Positions 43,595 to 57,934 of a stretch of DNA of 64,000 bases are shown one piece after another (position 1 is the stretch's first letter; each line of letters starts with the position of its first letter). This DNA comes from Clostridia bacterium. Lineage in GTDB: Bacteria > Bacillota > Clostridia > Lutisporales > Lutisporaceae. Below the pieces are notes generated by a model that was not told the DNA's origin, did not search any database, and saw nothing but the letters and a program-made list of their open reading frames with translations. Made by a program: the position numbers and the translations under genes. The stretch lies in NCBI GenBank assembly GCA_035628995.1, contig DASPIR010000010.1, positions 186,001 to 250,000 on the forward strand, written 5' to 3'.

Positions 43595-44914
43595 TTACTC
43601 CACATCACCCTGTTCCAAAAGCCCCATCAATACATTGATCGCATATAGCGGAATATTTGTTAGCCAAGACTCCTGTCTATAATCAGACATGGAGCTGCGA
43701 AAAGCCAGTTTTGGCTGGTATTTTAAACAATAATTTTTAAGGCTTTTTGCCTGTAAGTTTTCTGATGCTTTAACTTCAAGAGGAATAATATCTCCGCCAC
43801 TCTGAAAAATAAAATCAATTTCACCAGTAGATTTTTCAGCTGACCAATAATACGGTGTTACTTTACCGCTTGATTTAAGTTGCTGGAGTACATATTGCTC
43901 AGTTAAAGCTCCTTTGAACTCCTCAAACATTTTGTTACCTTCAAGTATTGATTTCAAATCAAGGTCACTCATTGCAGCAAGTAATCCCACATCAACTATA
44001 AACAGCTTAAAAGCATTAAAATCTTGATATGCAATTAGCGGCATATCAGGTTTTGATATACGACCCACTTTATATATCAAGCCGCAATCAATAAGCCATG
44101 TCATAGCAAGCTCATATTCTCTTGCTCGCGCCCCTTGTCTAATTAGTCCATATATAAATTTTCGGCTTTCCTTAGCAAGTTGTGATGGGATAGACGCCCA
44201 CAGCATTCTAATTCGTGGCACAGCTTCATTTGGCGCATGCTTTGAAAAGTCTTGCTCATAAGCCTTGAGAATTTTCTTTTGTATATCGCGTGCCATAGAA
44301 TAATCAGATGAAGCCACAAAGCTTGCCACCACCTCCGGCATCCCACCGATATAATAGTATTGCTTTAGTAGATCAATATATTTGCCTTTAAAGGTTGTAA
44401 TCATCTCAAAATCATGAGTCTGTAAAAGGTCCACAAGATTATTATTACCAGTCGCACTCAAAAACTCCAAAAAATCCAAAGGATACAAATCCAGAAAGTC
44501 TACCTTGCCTACTGGGAATGAAGTACCCGGATGGAGTGCTACCCCGAGCAGGCTTCCAGCGGCAATTATTTGATATTCTGGTGCATTTTCGCAGAAATAT
44601 TTGAGTGATGTAAGTGCTCGAGGCACCTCCTGTATCTCATCAAAAATAATCAATGTAGTTTCTGCATCAATTGTAACATCTGTCTCAATCTGCAGAGCAG
44701 TAATAATTCTTTTTATATCCAGGTTGCCACTAAATAGGCTTTCCATACGTTCATTATTGTCGAAATTTATATATGCACAGCTTTTATACTGCGTATGAGC
44801 AAACTCATTCATAAGCCATGTTTTACCGACCTGCCTTGCTCCTCTTACGATTAATGGCTTTCGGTATTTGCTATTCTTCCATTTGATTAAATCGTTCATA
44901 GTTTGCCTAAACAT
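43595..44914 (-). CDS. AAA-type ATPase with DUF4143 domain
   Basis: This is a P-loop ATPase of 439 residues in the AAA_14/DUF4143 group. It has Walker A GARQVGKTW, Walker B LIIFDEIQE, and a C-terminal half with the DUF4143 region and a PD-(D/E)XK-like stretch (GEIDFIFQSGGDIIPLEVKA). The ATG at 44914 is chosen since GGAGG lies 8 bases before it. Proteins of this group are widespread in anaerobes as single genes, often in many copies, and their function is unclear. It stands alone with its own terminator. The PD-(D/E)XK-like motif suggests nuclease ancestry, but activity cannot be claimed. Confidence 0.88.
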   Translation of the reverse strand: MFRQTMNDLIKWKNSKYRKPLIVRGARQVGKTWLMNEFAHTQYKSCAYINFDNNERMESLFSGNLDIKRIITALQIETDVTIDAETTLIIFDEIQEVPRALTSLKYFCENAPEYQIIAAGSLLGVALHPGTSFPVGKVDFLDLYPLDFLEFLSATGNNNLVDLLQTHDFEMITTFKGKYIDLLKQYYYIGGMPEVVASFVASSDYSMARDIQKKILKAYEQDFSKHAPNEAVPRIRMLWASIPSQLAKESRKFIYGLIRQGARAREYELAMTWLIDCGLIYKVGRISKPDMPLIAYQDFNAFKLFIVDVGLLAAMSDLDLKSILEGNKMFEEFKGALTEQYVLQQLKSSGKVTPYYWSAEKSTGEIDFIFQSGGDIIPLEVKASENLQAKSLKNYCLKYQPKLAFRSSMSDYRQESWLTNIPLYAINVLMGLLEQGDVE

Positions 44915-45030
44915 ATGCAACACCTCCATATTACTTTTGCAGTAAGCATAGCATGAAGTTTTACATAAGTCAAACGACTTTTTGGAATTAACTCCATTTT
45001 TATCAACGACTTTATGTGTATAAAAAAATA

Positions 45031-45052
45031 AGAAGGCGATTTCTCGCCTTCT
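45031..45052 (-). terminator. Terminator of the actin-like/PRC-barrel operon
   Basis: 9-bp stem AGAAGGCGA/TCGCCTTCT with a 4-base loop, then TATTTTTTTATAC on the minus strand. It directly follows the stop of the gene at 45054. Confidence 0.9.
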
Positions 45053-45053
45053 A

Positions 45054-45851
45054 TTAATCCTCTGCGTTCACTATTACTTTCACAATCACATTATTGCTGA
45101 TTGCATGCTTTATCAGTTCTGCGCTGATTATTGTTCCCTTCTCGTAGAAAATATCCTCTATGTCTATACCTTCCAAAAGCTGCTTGCCGCATAGATACGC
45201 ATATTTTGCATCTACTCCGGGAATAACATCCTTCTCATCATTATGATGTATGGATCTTACTACACTGAGTTCAGAGCTCTCAAGGCTCTTCTCCTTCTGC
45301 TTGTGGCTTTCATCATTCCATTTGATTTCCGGCCCTATTTCCATGGATACTGCAGCTTCCTCTTCTGAAGAATCATCTTCCTCAGAAGCTTCTTCTTCAG
45401 TCAAGATCTCTGACCCCGTCTCCTGAATCGCAGCTTCTGTCTTTTCAAACTCAGCTTCTTCTAAATCCGCAACAATCACGCTTCCATAGTTCACTATCTT
45501 TGACATTTCAATTTTGTAATACTCTGTGTATATGTATTGGACAACAAGCTGGTCGTCCACCTCAATCTCACGTAAGCACCCTAAATGCTTTCCGCTGATG
45601 TTGTAAACATCGAGCATGGATTTAAGGGATTTTACATCCTGGGTCGCCATTGTCATGGCTTTCACATCCTGAATCATGACAGCATCACTGCCTATGATTG
45701 CACTTTCTACAGGAATGGTAAAGTGGTTCTCCATATTCCTATGATAGATGCCGCTGACCTTATTGTCTTTGATTATAACTCCGTCCACCGTTCCTGCGAT
45801 TTCTGCTTCATGCATTGCTATAATTGGCTGCTCCAACAGCTTAATAATCAA
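45054..45851 (-). CDS. PRC-barrel domain protein with acidic linker, partner of actin-like protein
   Basis: This is a protein of 265 residues with no close family that I recognise. Two PRC-barrel-like modules are seen (about 1-70: IAMHEAEIAGTVDGVIIK; about 78-130: DVYNISGKHLGCLREI). Then comes a very acidic linker (about 133-175, many Glu/Asp/Ser) and a C-terminal segment of about 50 residues (YAYLCGKQLLEGIDIEDIF through VIVNAED). The start is a TTG at 45851; AGGTG lies 7 bases before it and overlaps the stop of the actin-like gene, 10 bases upstream. PRC barrels bind partner proteins, as in RimM and photosynthetic H subunits. It may cap, anchor or adapt the filament; this is inference. Confidence 0.7.
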   Translation of the reverse strand: MIIKLLEQPIIAMHEAEIAGTVDGVIIKDNKVSGIYHRNMENHFTIPVESAIIGSDAVMIQDVKAMTMATQDVKSLKSMLDVYNISGKHLGCLREIEVDDQLVVQYIYTEYYKIEMSKIVNYGSVIVADLEEAEFEKTEAAIQETGSEILTEEEASEEDDSSEEEAAVSMEIGPEIKWNDESHKQKEKSLESSELSVVRSIHHNDEKDVIPGVDAKYAYLCGKQLLEGIDIEDIFYEKGTIISAELIKHAISNNVIVKVIVNAED

Positions 45852-45861
45852 AAGCTAGCAC

Positions 45862-47001
45862 CTACCCTTCAAGGCTTGTTTTAACATCCCTGTACATTCT
45901 ATAGTACATGCTTCCTACTACATTGTCATATTCTCCAATATTACTCTTTATGCAAATAAAGTCATTGCTCAGATACTTGCTGAGATATTCAAAGAGTATC
46001 TTGCTTCCGCCGCCGGCAAATATTATGCTGTCGCAGCTGCCCATGAACTTTATTTTTGCAAATTCTCTGATATCCTTGCTCAGGTCATATGCAAAGACAT
46101 CAAATACGTTTTTAACTATGCCGCTTGCATCTATGTCCTCACCCTTTTTGCCCTTGAGCACCGACTCATGGAATCTTATCATATTGTCAACTTCGAAGCT
46201 GTATGGTTTTCTGTCGAGCTTGTCCCTGAAGTTGTTATAAAGTATCAATGAAATCTTCTCATAACAGTCGAACATACCCTTTTCGAAGGTGTTTACCCCT
46301 GCTACCTTGAAGCCATCGAATGCAGCTACATTTATCTGTCCTGAGCCTACATCCCAAACTACTGTTTTCATATCATCCTTGAATTCTTCCTTAACGCTTC
46401 CATCTTCATTGACCGCATACTGGAAGAATGCAGCTATACCTTCAGGACATAAAACTACTTTTTCAATATCAAATACTACCTCGTATATTACCTGTGAAGG
46501 GTTGTATATGTTAAAGAACATAACCTTCATATTTCCCATGAGGCTCTCAGTATATTTGTTAGCGGACTCTTCTTTATTCCTTGCATACTCTATAAGGGGC
46601 TGGTTAACTGTAAGGTCAATTTTCTGATAGTTTTTGTTGTACTTGGCCAGATTGTAAGCTATGCCTGCTATTATGCAGAACATTATTACTTCATCTGCTG
46701 CTTTCTCCTGATATCTGTTCCTGTCTCTTATCAGAAGACCTTTTTCTTCAGCGGCCTTTCCTACCAGCATCTTGCCCCTAGATTCACCATCCTTAATGAT
46801 TTCAACAAACATATTGTTAATATCGAGCTTTGCAGCATCGTTATTCCAGTCTGAAAGGTCGAAGTCAAAGTTCAAACCATAGTTCAAATCCTTCTCCGGC
46901 TCAGATATGATTGTTGGAAAATCAAAAGGCTTTCTGGATTCCTCCATTACTTTCGTCAATCTGTTTCCACCATCTGCGTAAATTTTAACCCGAGACTCCA
47001 T
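45862..47001 (-). CDS. ParM/StbA-like bacterial actin homologue
   Basis: This is a 379-residue member of the actin/Hsp70 ATPase fold. The phosphate-1 loop is ADGGNRLTKV (residues 9-18), phosphate-2 is WDVGSGQINVAAFDG (about 216-230) and the adenosine motif is IIFAGGGSKIL (about 330-340). It resembles the ParM/StbA/Alp group that forms filaments to move plasmids, but no plasmid genes are near. AAGGAGG precedes the ATG at 47001. It is followed by the PRC-barrel gene and faces away from an atypical ParA-like gene, so a chromosomal positioning or cytoskeletal role is possible. A phage or plasmid origin is the alternative. Confidence 0.82.
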   Translation of the reverse strand: MESRVKIYADGGNRLTKVMEESRKPFDFPTIISEPEKDLNYGLNFDFDLSDWNNDAAKLDINNMFVEIIKDGESRGKMLVGKAAEEKGLLIRDRNRYQEKAADEVIMFCIIAGIAYNLAKYNKNYQKIDLTVNQPLIEYARNKEESANKYTESLMGNMKVMFFNIYNPSQVIYEVVFDIEKVVLCPEGIAAFFQYAVNEDGSVKEEFKDDMKTVVWDVGSGQINVAAFDGFKVAGVNTFEKGMFDCYEKISLILYNNFRDKLDRKPYSFEVDNMIRFHESVLKGKKGEDIDASGIVKNVFDVFAYDLSKDIREFAKIKFMGSCDSIIFAGGGSKILFEYLSKYLSNDFICIKSNIGEYDNVVGSMYYRMYRDVKTSLEG

Positions 47002-47087
47002 TAAAAGACCTCCTTATAATATTATAAAAGTAAATGAATACAACTATTCTATAGTATACGATACTCCATATCTTCCCAGCAGCATAT

Positions 47088-47130
47088 AGGACTTTAGTCC
47101 TAATTTGTCTCAATTTGTTGAAAAATCAAC
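47088..47130. promoter_or_regulatory. Dyads in the divergent promoter region
   Basis: The 181-base gap between the actin-like and ParA-like genes holds AGGACT-TT-AGTCCT (47088-47101) and GTTGA-AAAA-TCAAC (47117-47130). A weak plus-strand promoter can be drawn with TTGAAA near 47119, 17 bases, then TAATTT. The dyads could be binding sites for one of the two encoded proteins; this is inference. Confidence 0.4.
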
Positions 47131-47182
47131 CATTTTGTGTTAATTTCAAGATGTATGTTGCTTTACTAAGGGAGGGTATAAG

Positions 47183-48619
47183 TTGGAAAATGTAAATAAT
47201 AAAAGTGCTTCTAAGGTGCACCGTTGCATTATCTCCACAGGTTCATCCTCTTCTTCTTATCTTCACAGCTATACTTCAAGCAATGTCGAAGAGAACACAT
47301 CCATCTGCAATTGCTCGAATAAGGAAGATATTTGCAAGGTAGATTCTGCTAATCATTATGATATTATTATAAATTATTCTGACGAATCAGTAAATGACAT
47401 TATATATGATTTGTTCAATTTTCTTATACCACATGATGTTCCTATCAGAGTTGTCTTCATTATGGACAAAAACATGTCAAGCAGCAGTACGCCGAAACAT
47501 GTCGCATTTTTAGAAAGACTGGAGAAACATAAATTTATCACTCTCGAATTTATAGATGACAGTCCGGTAGAACCAGTTACGCAGGAAGAAAATATAATAT
47601 ACTTCGTAGGTCCCGGGAACACTGGCAAGACTTCAATAATTGCCTCCTTAAGCGAGACTTTCAGGGAAAATAATCAAAAGCTTGCACTAATTGATATCAC
47701 CAGGAAGAATAAGCTCATCAATTATTTCCCCAAGCACAGCTTTCTAAACACGGGCAATTTGAAGGATTTTTCTATATCCAGTGATTTCTTCAGGTCTGTG
47801 AACATTTACACTGATGGCCTGGTAGACCTTTATGTATATGACTATGAGTATGATAAAAAAGGTCCTGAGGTCATATATTTCTGTGAGATACTTAGAAAAC
47901 TAAGCGATCTGTATGATTTTATAATTGTAAATGCTGATGAAAGCTCGTTAATAGGTACTCCCTACATATATAAAACAGCCAGCAAGGTTTTCATAGTGCA
48001 CGACTTCATGCCCACCAAGATAAGGGCTACAAAAAAGCTTCTTCTTAAGCTGATATCTGCAGGCATTGATACCCAGAAAACAGTATCACTTATATATAAC
48101 AAGACCCTCAGTGACACAATAGATATCGGCAAGATAGAGGAGAAGCTGCTTTTTATAAGGCTGCCCAACAAGAATATCATGCCTGCTGTGGATCTTAATT
48201 GCAGTACGTTTGAAATACCATACGAGCAGAAAACAATGGCTGCACTGATAAAAAATCTTGCAACAGACACAACCGGCATCGAAAATACCTCAAAGAAATA
48301 TAGGAATAATATCCGGAATATTTATAAGTACATAAACGACATCTCATATACAGATAATGATGACATGGAAATATCGCAATACATTAAGGAGAAATTTCAT
48401 AAGCTTACCGACCGAAAATATATAACGGAAGGCTTAAATAATATAAAAATAGACGTTGTCAACTTGAAGGACAGCAAGATTGCAGTAAAGCTTAGAACAA
48501 AGCTCCCCACTTCAGACATCAAGAATTTGAAGCTGAAGCTTCTAAAACATTACGACTCAGTTAGAAGTGCGATAGCAAAAAGCAAATATTTTAAGATAAA
48601 TAATAAGAAGCCGCATTAA
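47183..48619 (+). CDS. Atypical ParA/MinD-like P-loop protein
   Basis: This is a 478-residue protein. The N-terminal ~130 residues are unusual, with a Ser-rich stretch (STGSSSSSYLHSYTSS) and a small Cys cluster (CNCSNKEDIC), then a Rossmann-like segment. A P-loop follows near residue 145 (FVGPGNTGKTSI), with a ParA/CpaE-like fold after it (LALIDITRKNKL; DFIIVNADESS; KVFIVHDFMPTKIRATKKLL). The second lysine of the deviant ParA Walker motif is not evident. The basic C-terminal 130 residues may bind DNA or membrane. The start is a TTG after GGGAGGG. It is divergent from the actin-like gene and has its own terminator, suggesting one functional locus. The family assignment is only approximate. Confidence 0.68.
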   Translation: MENVNNKSASKVHRCIISTGSSSSSYLHSYTSSNVEENTSICNCSNKEDICKVDSANHYDIIINYSDESVNDIIYDLFNFLIPHDVPIRVVFIMDKNMSSSSTPKHVAFLERLEKHKFITLEFIDDSPVEPVTQEENIIYFVGPGNTGKTSIIASLSETFRENNQKLALIDITRKNKLINYFPKHSFLNTGNLKDFSISSDFFRSVNIYTDGLVDLYVYDYEYDKKGPEVIYFCEILRKLSDLYDFIIVNADESSLIGTPYIYKTASKVFIVHDFMPTKIRATKKLLLKLISAGIDTQKTVSLIYNKTLSDTIDIGKIEEKLLFIRLPNKNIMPAVDLNCSTFEIPYEQKTMAALIKNLATDTTGIENTSKKYRNNIRNIYKYINDISYTDNDDMEISQYIKEKFHKLTDRKYITEGLNNIKIDVVNLKDSKIAVKLRTKLPTSDIKNLKLKLLKHYDSVRSAIAKSKYFKINNKKPH

Positions 48620-48633
48620 TCAATGCGGCTTCT
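48606..48633. terminator. Terminator between convergent ParA-like and dehydrogenase genes
   Basis: Perfect 12-bp stem AGAAGCCGCATT/AATGCGGCTTCT with a 4-base loop and CTTTTTCC on the plus strand. It also lies at the end of the minus-strand dehydrogenase gene and overlaps the end of the ParA-like gene. Confidence 0.85.
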
Positions 48634-48641
48634 CTTTTTCC

Positions 48642-49865
48642 TTAAAAACCGAACAATACCTTTATACTCCTATATTTACTTTTGCCCGAAGCAACCTGCA
48701 GAGCTTGCTTATAGTCCTTTATATCAAACACATGGGTAACAAGCGGCTTGATATTGATCTTCCCGCCTTGAATCAGGTCAAGGGTATGCCTGTACGTGGA
48801 GGCCGTCTTCCCTTGAATGCTTTCAGTGCTGCACCAATAAGCCCCATGCAGTTTGACCTCCTTAAGCCATATCGGAGTCCAATCTACGCCCTTTGGAGCA
48901 GAAGCCAGGCCAATAAGCACCATGGTTCCTCCCTGCTTTGTAAATCTCAAAGACTCATCAATACTCAAATCCGAGCCGACACATTCAAAAACCCTGTCGA
49001 AGCCCCCTGCCATAACTCTCTTGCCTATAATGGGCTTATACAGCGTGCCTCCTGTTATATTTGCGAAGGTTGAGAAATAATCATTATCTCGGGTATATAC
49101 AACATTATCTGCACCATATAGTTCAGCCAGGTCACCCTGGAATTTATGTCTTGCAAGAATAGTAATGCTGCATTTGGACCCCAGCGCCCTAAGGCATGCC
49201 ACTACCATGAGTCCAATAATTCCGCTTCCCACCACCAGTACCTTTTCATTATCATCCGGAAAATTCCTTGCAACAGGGTGAAGAGCCGAGGCTATTGCAT
49301 CAACCAGCACAGCATCCTCGCTCTTGGTATCTTCATTAAGCTTAATGAGCTGTGACTTGTGAGCAATATAATATTCTCCCCAGCTTCCTCCCGTATCCCT
49401 GCAGGAGCCGATGGACATTCCCGGTGCCAATAAACCTCTGGTAAAGTTGCTGCACAAAGCCGCATTGCCGCTCTTACAGCTTGGACATTCCTCTTCAATG
49501 CCCCTCACCCTGCAGGAAAGTATAGGATCTGCAATTATCCTGTCTCCTACCTCGAAGCCCTCTACATTATTTCCTTTTTCTGCTATCACACCAGCATTCT
49601 CATGTCCTATTACAAAAGGGAAGGATACAAAAGGTGATGCAGAAGGACTATCATGCAGATACACCAGGTTGAGGTCACTCCCGCAGACTCCTCCATAGCT
49701 GGTCTTGATTTTCACCCAATCCTGCCCTGGGAGCTCAGGCTCTTTAAGATTATCTTTATAGCTGGTACAGGTGATTCCCCCATAACTGAGCTTTTTATTG
49801 ACCTTTCCCAGCATCAGCGTGCCCACGTATTTCTTTACATCCCCGTCAAATACTATCCCTTTCAA
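48642..49865 (-). CDS. Zinc-dependent medium-chain alcohol dehydrogenase
   Basis: This is a cytosolic NAD(P)-dependent dehydrogenase of the MDR zinc family, 407 residues. The catalytic zinc ligands are in YGGVCGSDLN and FVIGHENAG. A structural-zinc-like Cys group is present (CRVRGIEEECPSC and later Cys), and the nucleotide-binding loop is VVGSGIIGLMVV. The start is TTG at 49865 after GAGGGGG. It lies 27 bases after an alpha-oxoamine synthase gene. That pairing recalls threonine dehydrogenase plus 2-amino-3-ketobutyrate CoA ligase, but this protein is longer than Tdh (about 340) and has a different N-terminus, so another secondary-alcohol substrate is possible. Confidence 0.82.
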   Translation of the reverse strand: MKGIVFDGDVKKYVGTLMLGKVNKKLSYGGITCTSYKDNLKEPELPGQDWVKIKTSYGGVCGSDLNLVYLHDSPSASPFVSFPFVIGHENAGVIAEKGNNVEGFEVGDRIIADPILSCRVRGIEEECPSCKSGNAALCSNFTRGLLAPGMSIGSCRDTGGSWGEYYIAHKSQLIKLNEDTKSEDAVLVDAIASALHPVARNFPDDNEKVLVVGSGIIGLMVVACLRALGSKCSITILARHKFQGDLAELYGADNVVYTRDNDYFSTFANITGGTLYKPIIGKRVMAGGFDRVFECVGSDLSIDESLRFTKQGGTMVLIGLASAPKGVDWTPIWLKEVKLHGAYWCSTESIQGKTASTYRHTLDLIQGGKINIKPLVTHVFDIKDYKQALQVASGKSKYRSIKVLFGF

Positions 49866-56012: not shown

Positions 56013-56036
56013 AGGCAGGTATGCACCTGCCTTTAC
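56009..56036. terminator. Bidirectional terminator between iadA and ltaS-like genes
   Basis: Perfect 12-bp stem GTAAAGGCAGGT/ACCTGCCTTTAC with a 4-base loop, overlapping the ends of both convergent genes. Confidence 0.8.
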
Positions 56037-57934
56037 TTTCTTAAATATTCTATTAGCTCATTCACTAAATTATTTTCTATTATCAAATCTGAATACTCAA
56101 GGCTCTTTCTTGCAAGCTCCTTTTCTTTCTCCAGTTTTTCTATTGGATATTTTTCACCGGTTTTAACATCATATGCTACTCCATCTGCTGTAAGGCAAAT
56201 GTATTTGTCAGTTATGAAATAACCATGCCTTAAAATTGCAATCCCCTCAGAAGAATTCAGCAAATCCCGGCCCAGCATTGGCATGCTGCTGCTGTCAACA
56301 CCCATTACATTCAATATAGTCGGCATGAAATCCACGCCTCCGCCAGCTATATGTTTAGTCCCCTTATAGGTATTTCCCGGTATATGTATAATGAGCGGTA
56401 CCTTCTGCTGTTTCACCCAGTTGAAATCATCCATAACACCCAATCCCAAGAATTCTCCCAGATACTCTTTTTTATCCTTCGGTATGGCAAAATGATCCCC
56501 ATATATAGCCAGTACCGAGCGTTCCATAATTCCGCTTGCTTCCAGCCCCTCAATGAATTCTCCCAAGGCTTCGTCAGCATAGTGGATAGACTCAAGATAA
56601 TTCCCTAAGAAAGTATCCTTGTACTCCCCTACATCAAACTTGCTGTAGTACTTTTCATCATTGTCAAAGGGATAATGGCTGGTAAGGGTTATTAAGAGCG
56701 AGTAGTATGGCTCCTTATATTTCTCCAGTTGCTCAAGTGATTGTCTGAAGAAGGATTTATCACTGAGTCCCATGCCAACTATCTCATCCTGCACTAAACT
56801 GTTCTTATTCACAAACTCATCAAATCCGAGTGTCTTGTACATTACGCTTCTATTCCAAAAGCCAGGCTTATACGCATGCATTGCCGAGGCATAATAGCCT
56901 TCCTGCTTCAGCCTTTTGGCAAGGGAATAGTACTCGTTTCCTGAAAACCTTATGTATGCTGAGCCTTCCTTTGCCGGAAACATAGATGCATTGGACAGGA
57001 GCTCGGCATCCGAGGTCCCCCCTCCCGCTGTCTCGGTATAGTAATTGTCGAAATATAGGCTGTTCTTTATCAGTTTGTTCAGATTTGGAGTAATCTCCTG
57101 TCCACTGATGCTTCTGTTTATAACAAACTCCTGAAGAGCTTCCACCTGAATCACTATTAAATTCTTATCCTTGCCTACGCCAAATAGCTTGGGGTTCTGC
57201 GGCTTATCAGCCTTTTTGCTATCTAAAAATTCACGTATGTTTATCTTATTGTCCTCGGTTACCGGCATTGCCTCTTTGTCCTTCGACTTTACAAACTTAA
57301 AGGCATCAATACTGTGGAAGCTCAACAGTCCAATATTCTGCACGATATATACCCTGTCATAAAATGAGCTCAGTATAAAGGGTTGTGTTTTCAACAAGCT
57401 AAATATGCCGTAGCTGCAAAGTCCAAAGCCTATTACAAATGCAAAAACGAAACGTATAATTCTTTTTCTATAGGCTATATTGCTGCGTCTGCTCACACTT
57501 TTGCTAACATTAAGTATTAAAGGTATTATAAAAAGGTCTAGTGCAAATATCAGATCGGATATATGCAGCAGACTGACTACACTGCTTTTCACTGAGGTTA
57601 CACTGGAGGCTTGAGTTAAAACATTCATTGAGAGCACATCAGTAAAATACCTGTAAAACAGCATATCTGCTATTATGATAAGCGTGACTGCGATATCAAT
57701 CAAATACAGAAAAGTCAACCGAGCTGTCTTAGGTATAAGACCAGTCCAGCATACAAGTACAAGTACTGTACCCACAACAGAGGCGAACAATGCAATATTC
57801 TTAATGCTGCTGCTTTCCATTATCCCATTGAAAACCAGAAGCTTCAACGCAATAAATATAAAGAATAAGTGGATTTCATTACTCATACTGTTTTTTATTA
57901 ACTCAATAACTCTATTCCTATTAATGTGCTTCAT
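56033..57934 (-). CDS. LTA synthase family sulfatase-like transferase
   Basis: This is a membrane enzyme that polymerises glycerol-phosphate from phosphatidylglycerol on the outer face, as LtaS/YfnI/YqgS. The 633 residues show about five transmembrane segments in the first 200 residues, then the extracellular sulfatase-fold domain with the metal-binding VIQVEALQEFV, the catalytic threonine in ETAGGGTSDAEL and LAIYGDHFAIP. The length agrees with the family. It is a single-gene unit on the minus strand. It may make lipoteichoic acid, or its primer, for the Gram-positive envelope. Confidence 0.92.
   Translation of the reverse strand: MKHINRNRVIELIKNSMSNEIHLFFIFIALKLLVFNGIMESSSIKNIALFASVVGTVLVLVCWTGLIPKTARLTFLYLIDIAVTLIIIADMLFYRYFTDVLSMNVLTQASSVTSVKSSVVSLLHISDLIFALDLFIIPLILNVSKSVSRRSNIAYRKRIIRFVFAFVIGFGLCSYGIFSLLKTQPFILSSFYDRVYIVQNIGLLSFHSIDAFKFVKSKDKEAMPVTEDNKINIREFLDSKKADKPQNPKLFGVGKDKNLIVIQVEALQEFVINRSISGQEITPNLNKLIKNSLYFDNYYTETAGGGTSDAELLSNASMFPAKEGSAYIRFSGNEYYSLAKRLKQEGYYASAMHAYKPGFWNRSVMYKTLGFDEFVNKNSLVQDEIVGMGLSDKSFFRQSLEQLEKYKEPYYSLLITLTSHYPFDNDEKYYSKFDVGEYKDTFLGNYLESIHYADEALGEFIEGLEASGIMERSVLAIYGDHFAIPKDKKEYLGEFLGLGVMDDFNWVKQQKVPLIIHIPGNTYKGTKHIAGGGVDFMPTILNVMGVDSSSMPMLGRDLLNSSEGIAILRHGYFITDKYICLTADGVAYDVKTGEKYPIEKLEKEKELARKSLEYSDLIIENNLVNELIEYLRK

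Follow-up and report, generated by a model that had tools for sequence, protein, structure and literature searches.

The window analysed here, a stretch of 64,000 nucleotides (positions 186001-250000 of a 268-kb contig) from a clostridial assembly of 3.65 Mb, carries a chromosomal trio of genes encoding a ParM-type actin-like protein (ALP), a protein with two PRC barrels and a P-loop protein of the ParA/MinD type. The three genes are inherited together as one unit and seem to make up a scaffold or positioning system inside the cell, not described before, that would originate from a former plasmid-partition actin. The gene for the ParM/ALP-type protein (45862..47001, minus strand; 379 amino acid residues, aa) is followed by that for the adaptor-like two-PRC-barrel protein (45054..45851, minus strand; 265 aa), which has a TTG start and begins 10 bases after the actin stop codon. 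The third gene (47183..48619, plus strand; 478 aa), coding for a protein with a pseudo-receiver and a P-loop domain, is transcribed away from this pair across a gap of 181 bp; it also has a TTG start, with the ribosome-binding site GGGAGGG upstream. All three open reading frames (ORFs) lie at the positions and on the strands given to them in the initial annotation, a reading of the window made from its sequence alone.

Co-occurrence and chromosomal location

It is well shown by their distribution that the actin, PRC and P-loop genes form one unit. In the family f70, each of them occurs in 9 of 20 genomes, which are identical for all three, and none occurs in the other 11, an agreement that would arise by chance once in 167,960 for each gene pair, as given by simple counting with kinship ignored. 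Among 148 relatives, only eight genomes yielded the P-loop gene, every one of them with the actin gene, the PRC gene being detected wherever the contig extends far enough; and when 391 genomes of the class are considered, the nine that encode a close actin are also the nine that have the P-loop gene. Weak P-loop matches in three further genomes (G159, G358 and G391), which lie in 680-residue frames and score 28-32 bits, were not counted. Comparison of 15 flanked loci with 287 ORFs revealed the trio as the only gene clusters common to the families f1, f21, f70 and f87, and the gene order and divergent orientation are identical in every trio locus. In each of the genera g142, g225 and g228, one species has the full trio and another has none of it, which indicates that the unit is gained or lost whole; such species of one genus provide natural pairs for comparison.

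The trio is located on the chromosome, as had been proposed. Two of the carriers are single-contig genomes (G326 with 3.26 Mb and G395 with 4.93 Mb), a third copy (G407) lies on a contig of 4.2 Mb, and no plasmid or phage genes were found at the trio loci examined. The nearest relatives that the actin has among plasmids and phages, in five plasmid records and in phage G, share only 21-25% identity with it, and a plasmid search with the P-loop protein gave no match. The neighbourhood search in Clostridia, put forward in the initial annotation as a check able to overturn its reading, thus found co-occurrence of the three genes free of plasmid and phage genes.

Purifying selection acts on all three genes. 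The ratios of nonsynonymous to synonymous substitution rates (dN/dS) within the genus, obtained by the Nei-Gojobori approach, are lowest for the actin gene (about 0.03), followed by the P-loop gene (0.06-0.09) and the PRC gene (0.19), these figures being approximate because the synonymous sites are near saturation. Across families the actin retains 60-68% identity and the PRC and P-loop partners 26-39%, so that the filament core appears to be kept constant while the partners evolve faster. A patchy distribution and the occasional broken copies (in G395, G326 and G002) could speak for chance neighbours or for a plasmid or phage in decay; since the unit is conserved in four families, however, a chance neighbourhood is excluded, and the exact co-occurrence, the lack of mobile-element genes and dN/dS values well under 1 contradict such an origin as a whole, which is considered highly improbable.

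Actin-like protein

The assignment of the first protein as a ParM-like actin homologue was borne out by its match to the Pfam family ALP_N (PF17989; E=1.7e-7, 32.0 bits with a cut-off of 26.3), found in 15 of 15 members, and by its intact motifs, i.e. phosphate-1 (DGGNRLTK), phosphate-2 (DVGSGQINVA), the catalytic CPEG and the adenosine motif GGGS. The motifs of the actin-fold ATPase are retained in every trio member. The protein also matches the PHROG group annotated as 'partition protein' (E=1.3e-21), and its nearest solved chain is Cbc-ParM from C. botulinum (7x54; E 5e-6). It scores 34.8 bits with the equivalog model for ParM in plasmid segregation (NF010498), the cut-off being 417, and 15.5 bits with the FcmB model (NF052678), for which the cut-off is 300. 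In an evolutionary tree built without FcmB, MreB and the published chromosomal ParMs (cParMs), the 15 trio actins form a single clade (support 100/99) with respect to nine other ParM-like proteins. Judged from sequence, the actin is therefore to be placed in the ParM-type ALP group, in a clade of its own that is not covered by the curated models for ParM and FcmB.

Concerning individual copies and other actins seen in the survey, the actin gene of the MAG G002 (L043:1402-2775) is interrupted by one in-frame TAA, reflecting either a pseudogene or an assembly error. A separate group of ParM-like actins is found at the loci L037 and L038 (genomes G013 and G008) and also at L060, L062 and L064; those of G008 and G013 are situated amid small membrane genes of the metal-efflux-like or cytochrome-like kind, and that of G008 precedes a gene for 93 aa with a weak match to DUF3848. 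In G075 (L039:6230-7753), a bactofilin gene (PF04519; E 3e-13) comes directly after the gene for a chromosomal ParM-like actin of 333 aa, possibly a further pairing of an actin with a polymer-forming protein.

PRC-barrel protein

The protein encoded next to the actin consists of two PRC barrels (aa 1-132; 45456..45851, minus strand), an acidic linker predicted to be disordered (aa 139-208; 45228..45437, minus strand; pLDDT < 50) and a conserved C-terminal domain (aa 209-265; 45057..45227, minus strand) that has no Pfam match. Taken alone, the protein of the window has a marginal PRC match (E=0.015; 15.8 bits with a cut-off of 21.2); the family PF05239 is matched by 13 of 14 orthologues, with the best E-value of 1.9e-11, and the AlphaFold2 model has two confident barrels, a disordered linker and a confident C-terminal domain. 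The acidic character of the linker (24-36% Asp and Glu, net charge from -5 to -29) is kept in all 14 orthologues. The coupled gene for a two-PRC-barrel protein with an acidic linker, read originally from the sequence, is thus confirmed.

In fold searches, the two-barrel head is matched best by the CdpB1-CdpB2 complex of archaea (8qzo), with a Foldseek E-value of 1e-6 and, in VIA, a Z of 10.7 and an rmsd of 4.1 over 122 residues at 19% identity, the next entries reaching Z 7; the H chains of reaction centres are also among the structure matches. The strictest conservation is located in the C-terminal domain (IDxRYxYLxGKxLLExI...NNxIVKxIMxxED), for which a suspected resemblance to N-terminal repeats of RNA polymerase or HD-GYP proteins found no confirmation. 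With regard to gene position, the end of parM is overlapped, in the ParM relatives of plasmids and phage G, by a small gene (116-129 codons) that takes the same slot as the PRC gene, and the slot behind parM is the usual place of parR. The initial annotation saw in this protein a link from the filament to a cargo, the membrane or a cell pole; the adaptor part of that claim is backed by the ParR slot and by the CdpB1/CdpB2 fold, and the binding to cargo, membrane or pole is retained here only as something the protein might do.

P-loop protein

The model of the third protein comprises a receiver-like N-terminal domain (aa 10-130; 47210..47572, plus strand) with a beta-alpha-beta fold at aa 14-125, a ParA/MinD-type ATPase domain (aa 135-389; 47585..48349, plus strand) and a helical tail (aa 390-478; 48350..48616, plus strand; low model confidence) that is poorly modelled and varies in length and charge, its details being uncertain because the mean pLDDT is 68.6. 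The ATPase domain matches the folds of ParA (3ea0; Z 20.3) and MinD (4v02; Z 20.2), and 11 of 15 members match the CbiA family. TadZ (3fkq) ranks third in Foldseek and is the only one of the early matches aligned over both domains, the rmsd of 15 being due to a different placement of the two domains; none of the 15 members matched the Pfam family TadZ_N up to E 0.1, and no pilus genes were found beside the trio in any locus examined. An alternative likeness to SRP/FtsY, with weak matches (best E 0.0008), was set aside because the fold search gave ParA/MinD with Z ~20, and a match to mads_8 (E 1e-4) covers only the generic P-loop region.

The Walker A motif GPGNTGKT (47609..47632, plus strand) is without the ParA/MinD signature lysine. 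The loss, claimed earlier for the window, holds for all 15 orthologues, which have Pro, Ala, Ser or Pro-Cys-Asp variants instead; GK[TS] and the A' Asp are kept in all 15, and the Walker B Asp is replaced by Asn in 14 of them. The receiver-like domain is devoid of the acidic pair after strand 1, and at the end of strand 3, where other genera have an Asp, the window's genus has Asn or Ser, which means that the domain is probably a pseudo-receiver. The ATPase domain is mostly basic, with a net charge of +2 to +17 across the members, and that of the tail ranges from -3 to +14. The Ser-rich N-terminus and the basic tail mentioned in the initial annotation are found only within the window's genus, and neither the Ser/Cys richness nor the basic tail is conserved in the other members; the N-terminal region is, according to the model, a folded receiver-like domain. 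By its likeness to TadZ and MinD, a positioning role for the P-loop protein seems plausible.

Control region

The divergent intergenic region (47002..47182) contains elements conserved in the families f1 and f70. One of them is the sequence TAGGACTTTAGTCCTA (47087..47102), a perfect 16-bp palindrome in the window's genus, the TATAGG core of which is conserved between f1 and f70; another is a promoter-like element of the P-loop gene, TTGTTG - 17 bp - TGTTAA (47115..47143, plus strand), inferred from conservation and represented in relatives by TTGTTG/TGATAT. The conserved core together with the promoter-like element suggests that the two directions of transcription are jointly controlled.

Such an arrangement, a divergent gene with a shared and conserved control region, is typical of a regulator, and it could be imagined that the actin and the PRC protein alone constitute the machine, with a P-loop protein that does no positioning and uses its receiver-like domain to sense a nucleotide or a signal. 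The eroded ATPase motifs (no signature lysine, Asn in Walker B) and the genome G326, which retains the receiver-like domain alone, would fit this possibility. On the other hand, no DNA-binding domain was detected in the P-loop protein, its GK[TS] and A' Asp are invariant, and TadZ from E. rectale has been reported to remain active as an ATPase although it lacks the conserved lysines (PMC10482377). The regulator explanation is thus regarded as improbable.

The same region bears on the question of DNA partition. A search for parC-like or iteron repeats within 44930-48700 found none, the single palindrome lying between the two promoters in an operator-like position, so that the intergenic region is unlike a parC array. 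No conserved small ORF of at least 40 aa, as a candidate ParR, was present across families in the 15 loci, and no ribbon-helix-helix or other DNA-binding family was found in any of the trio proteins. The absence of both ParR and a centromere, pointed out in the initial annotation, is thereby corroborated, and all these observations argue against a chromosomal partition system of the cParMR type, in which the PRC or the ParA-like protein would have taken over the DNA binding of ParR and would segregate or hold a chromosome region. It should be mentioned that the actin is of the ParM type with Cbc-ParM as its nearest solved relative, that ParA proteins bind DNA and the ATPase domain here is mostly basic, and that chromosomal ParMs with a DNA-binding ParR are known (PMC12270681). 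The partition explanation, taken together, is considered unlikely, if a shade less so than the regulator one.

Genomic surroundings

The trio in the window is surrounded by ordinary chromosomal genes, i.e. those for an ABC exporter, TetR, AAA_14/DUF4143 and zinc dehydrogenase proteins, and further for an aminotransferase-type enzyme, glycosyl hydrolase 3, radical SAM and sulfatase proteins. The adjoining AAA_14/DUF4143 ATPase (43595-44929) matches the candidate defence model PDC-S01 with an E-value of 5e-191 and is not conserved beside the trio. The LtaS-like membrane sulfatase (56033-57934 in the window; also at the loci L035, L040, L041 and L042) is located up to about 10 kb away from the trio in f1 genomes and exhibits 61-67% identity between two genera; it is absent near the trio in the other families.

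Proposed role

Based on the above results, the trio can be viewed as a chromosomal three-part module of a domesticated ParM-type filament, a PRC adaptor replacing ParR and a TadZ-like protein for anchoring or placing, a proposal whose chances of being right or wrong are judged to be evenly balanced. The ParM-type actin would polymerise into ATP-driven filaments. The PRC protein would act as an end or side adaptor, its head, flexible acidic linker and C-terminal domain joining the filament to a second partner, and the TadZ-like protein may tie the assembly to the pole, the membrane or the nucleoid, mainly via the receiver-like domain. Direct contacts among the three proteins would be expected in such an assembly, as well as a cargo, if there is any. 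The earlier interpretation of the locus as a cytoskeletal or positioning system is, in this sense, partly supported.

Several observations weigh against this three-part module. No cargo gene adjoining the trio is conserved across families in the 15 loci, and no membrane-targeting motif was shown in the trio proteins. In G326, the P-loop gene is reduced to an ORF of 148 codons for the receiver-like domain only, and in G395 it is split by a frame change, either a true lesion or an error; the ATPase part thus need not always be required, and the G326 case means that positioning driven by the ATPase is not needed everywhere. The short ORF of G326, at the same time, points to the receiver-like domain as the essential link.

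A cytoskeleton for cell shape similar to FcmB/FcmC, with membrane-attached filaments guiding wall growth and the PRC protein as the partner on the membrane side, would share with that system its history, i.e. a ParM-type, chromosomal actin with a conserved downstream partner (PMC12645912), and four f1 genomes encode the LtaS-like membrane sulfatase close to the module. The actin, however, stays far below the cut-off of the FcmB model, an obvious membrane segment is seen in none of the three proteins, the sulfatase link is missing in other families, and the patchy presence within genera would be odd for a determinant of shape. The likelihood of this explanation is put as low as that of the regulator.

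Actin filaments and ParA-family proteins are normally alternatives. The trio could go further, the ParR/centromere half of a plasmid-partition machine being replaced by the CdpB-like adaptor and the TadZ-like placer and the filament cooperating with a ParA-family protein on a task other than DNA, so as to define a distinct class of actin systems; this extension is advanced tentatively, as a possibility that may well fail. It would unite parts of otherwise separate systems, namely a ParM-type filament, a TadZ-like protein for placement and a PRC adaptor like that in the division of archaea. Which roles chromosomal ParM-type actins have outside the segregation of plasmids is an open question (PMC12270681), to which the trio, with its different partners inherited strictly with the actin, brings a concrete hypothesis and two new proteins.

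Comparison with known systems

No account of the trio came up in a literature search that combined PRC-barrel proteins with actin or ParM. Among the known systems, chromosomal ParMs with a ribbon-helix-helix ParR have been described as Dh-cParM1 of Desulfitobacterium and Cb-cParM of C. botulinum, and chromosomal ParMs do polymerise (PMC12270681). The trio shares with cParMR a ParM-type actin on the chromosome followed by a partner gene, Cbc-ParM being the best solved relative; it differs in that a two-PRC-barrel protein occupies the place of ParR and a third gene, in divergent orientation, is invariably present. In filamentous cyanobacteria, FcmB/FcmC combine a ParM-derived chromosomal actin with a membrane partner, which brings the actin to the membrane for a non-DNA task, the control of shape (PMC12645912). 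A ParM-derived actin turned chromosomal, with a conserved downstream partner alongside, is thus common to both, whereas FcmC has no recognised domain, the partner in the trio has PRC barrels, and a third gene has not been described for FcmBC.

As far as the partners are concerned, the PRC-barrel division proteins CdpB1/CdpB2 stabilise the archaeal divisome (PMC12186497). They resemble the PRC protein in the tandem PRC fold and in their association with a cytoskeletal filament system; unlike it, they are archaeal and belong to the FtsZ/SepF division machinery, the neighbour of the PRC gene encoding an actin and not FtsZ, and the sequence identity is low. To our knowledge, there is no CdpB-type protein with an acidic linker and a C-terminal domain such as those present here. 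The P-loop protein appears, from its model, to have in common with TadZ/CpaE (3fkq) the receiver-like N-terminal domain, the ParA/MinD ATPase domain and the lost signature lysine, but its gene is found outside a pilus locus, without a TadZ_N match and paired with an actin. With ParA, MinD, FlhG and McdA it shares the fold of residues 135-389 (Z 18-20) as well as the A' Asp and GK[TS], differing from them by the absence of the signature lysine, the Asn in Walker B and the additional N-terminal domain. The trio is, consequently, a variant of the chromosomal ParM-type actin systems, set apart from them by its two partners.

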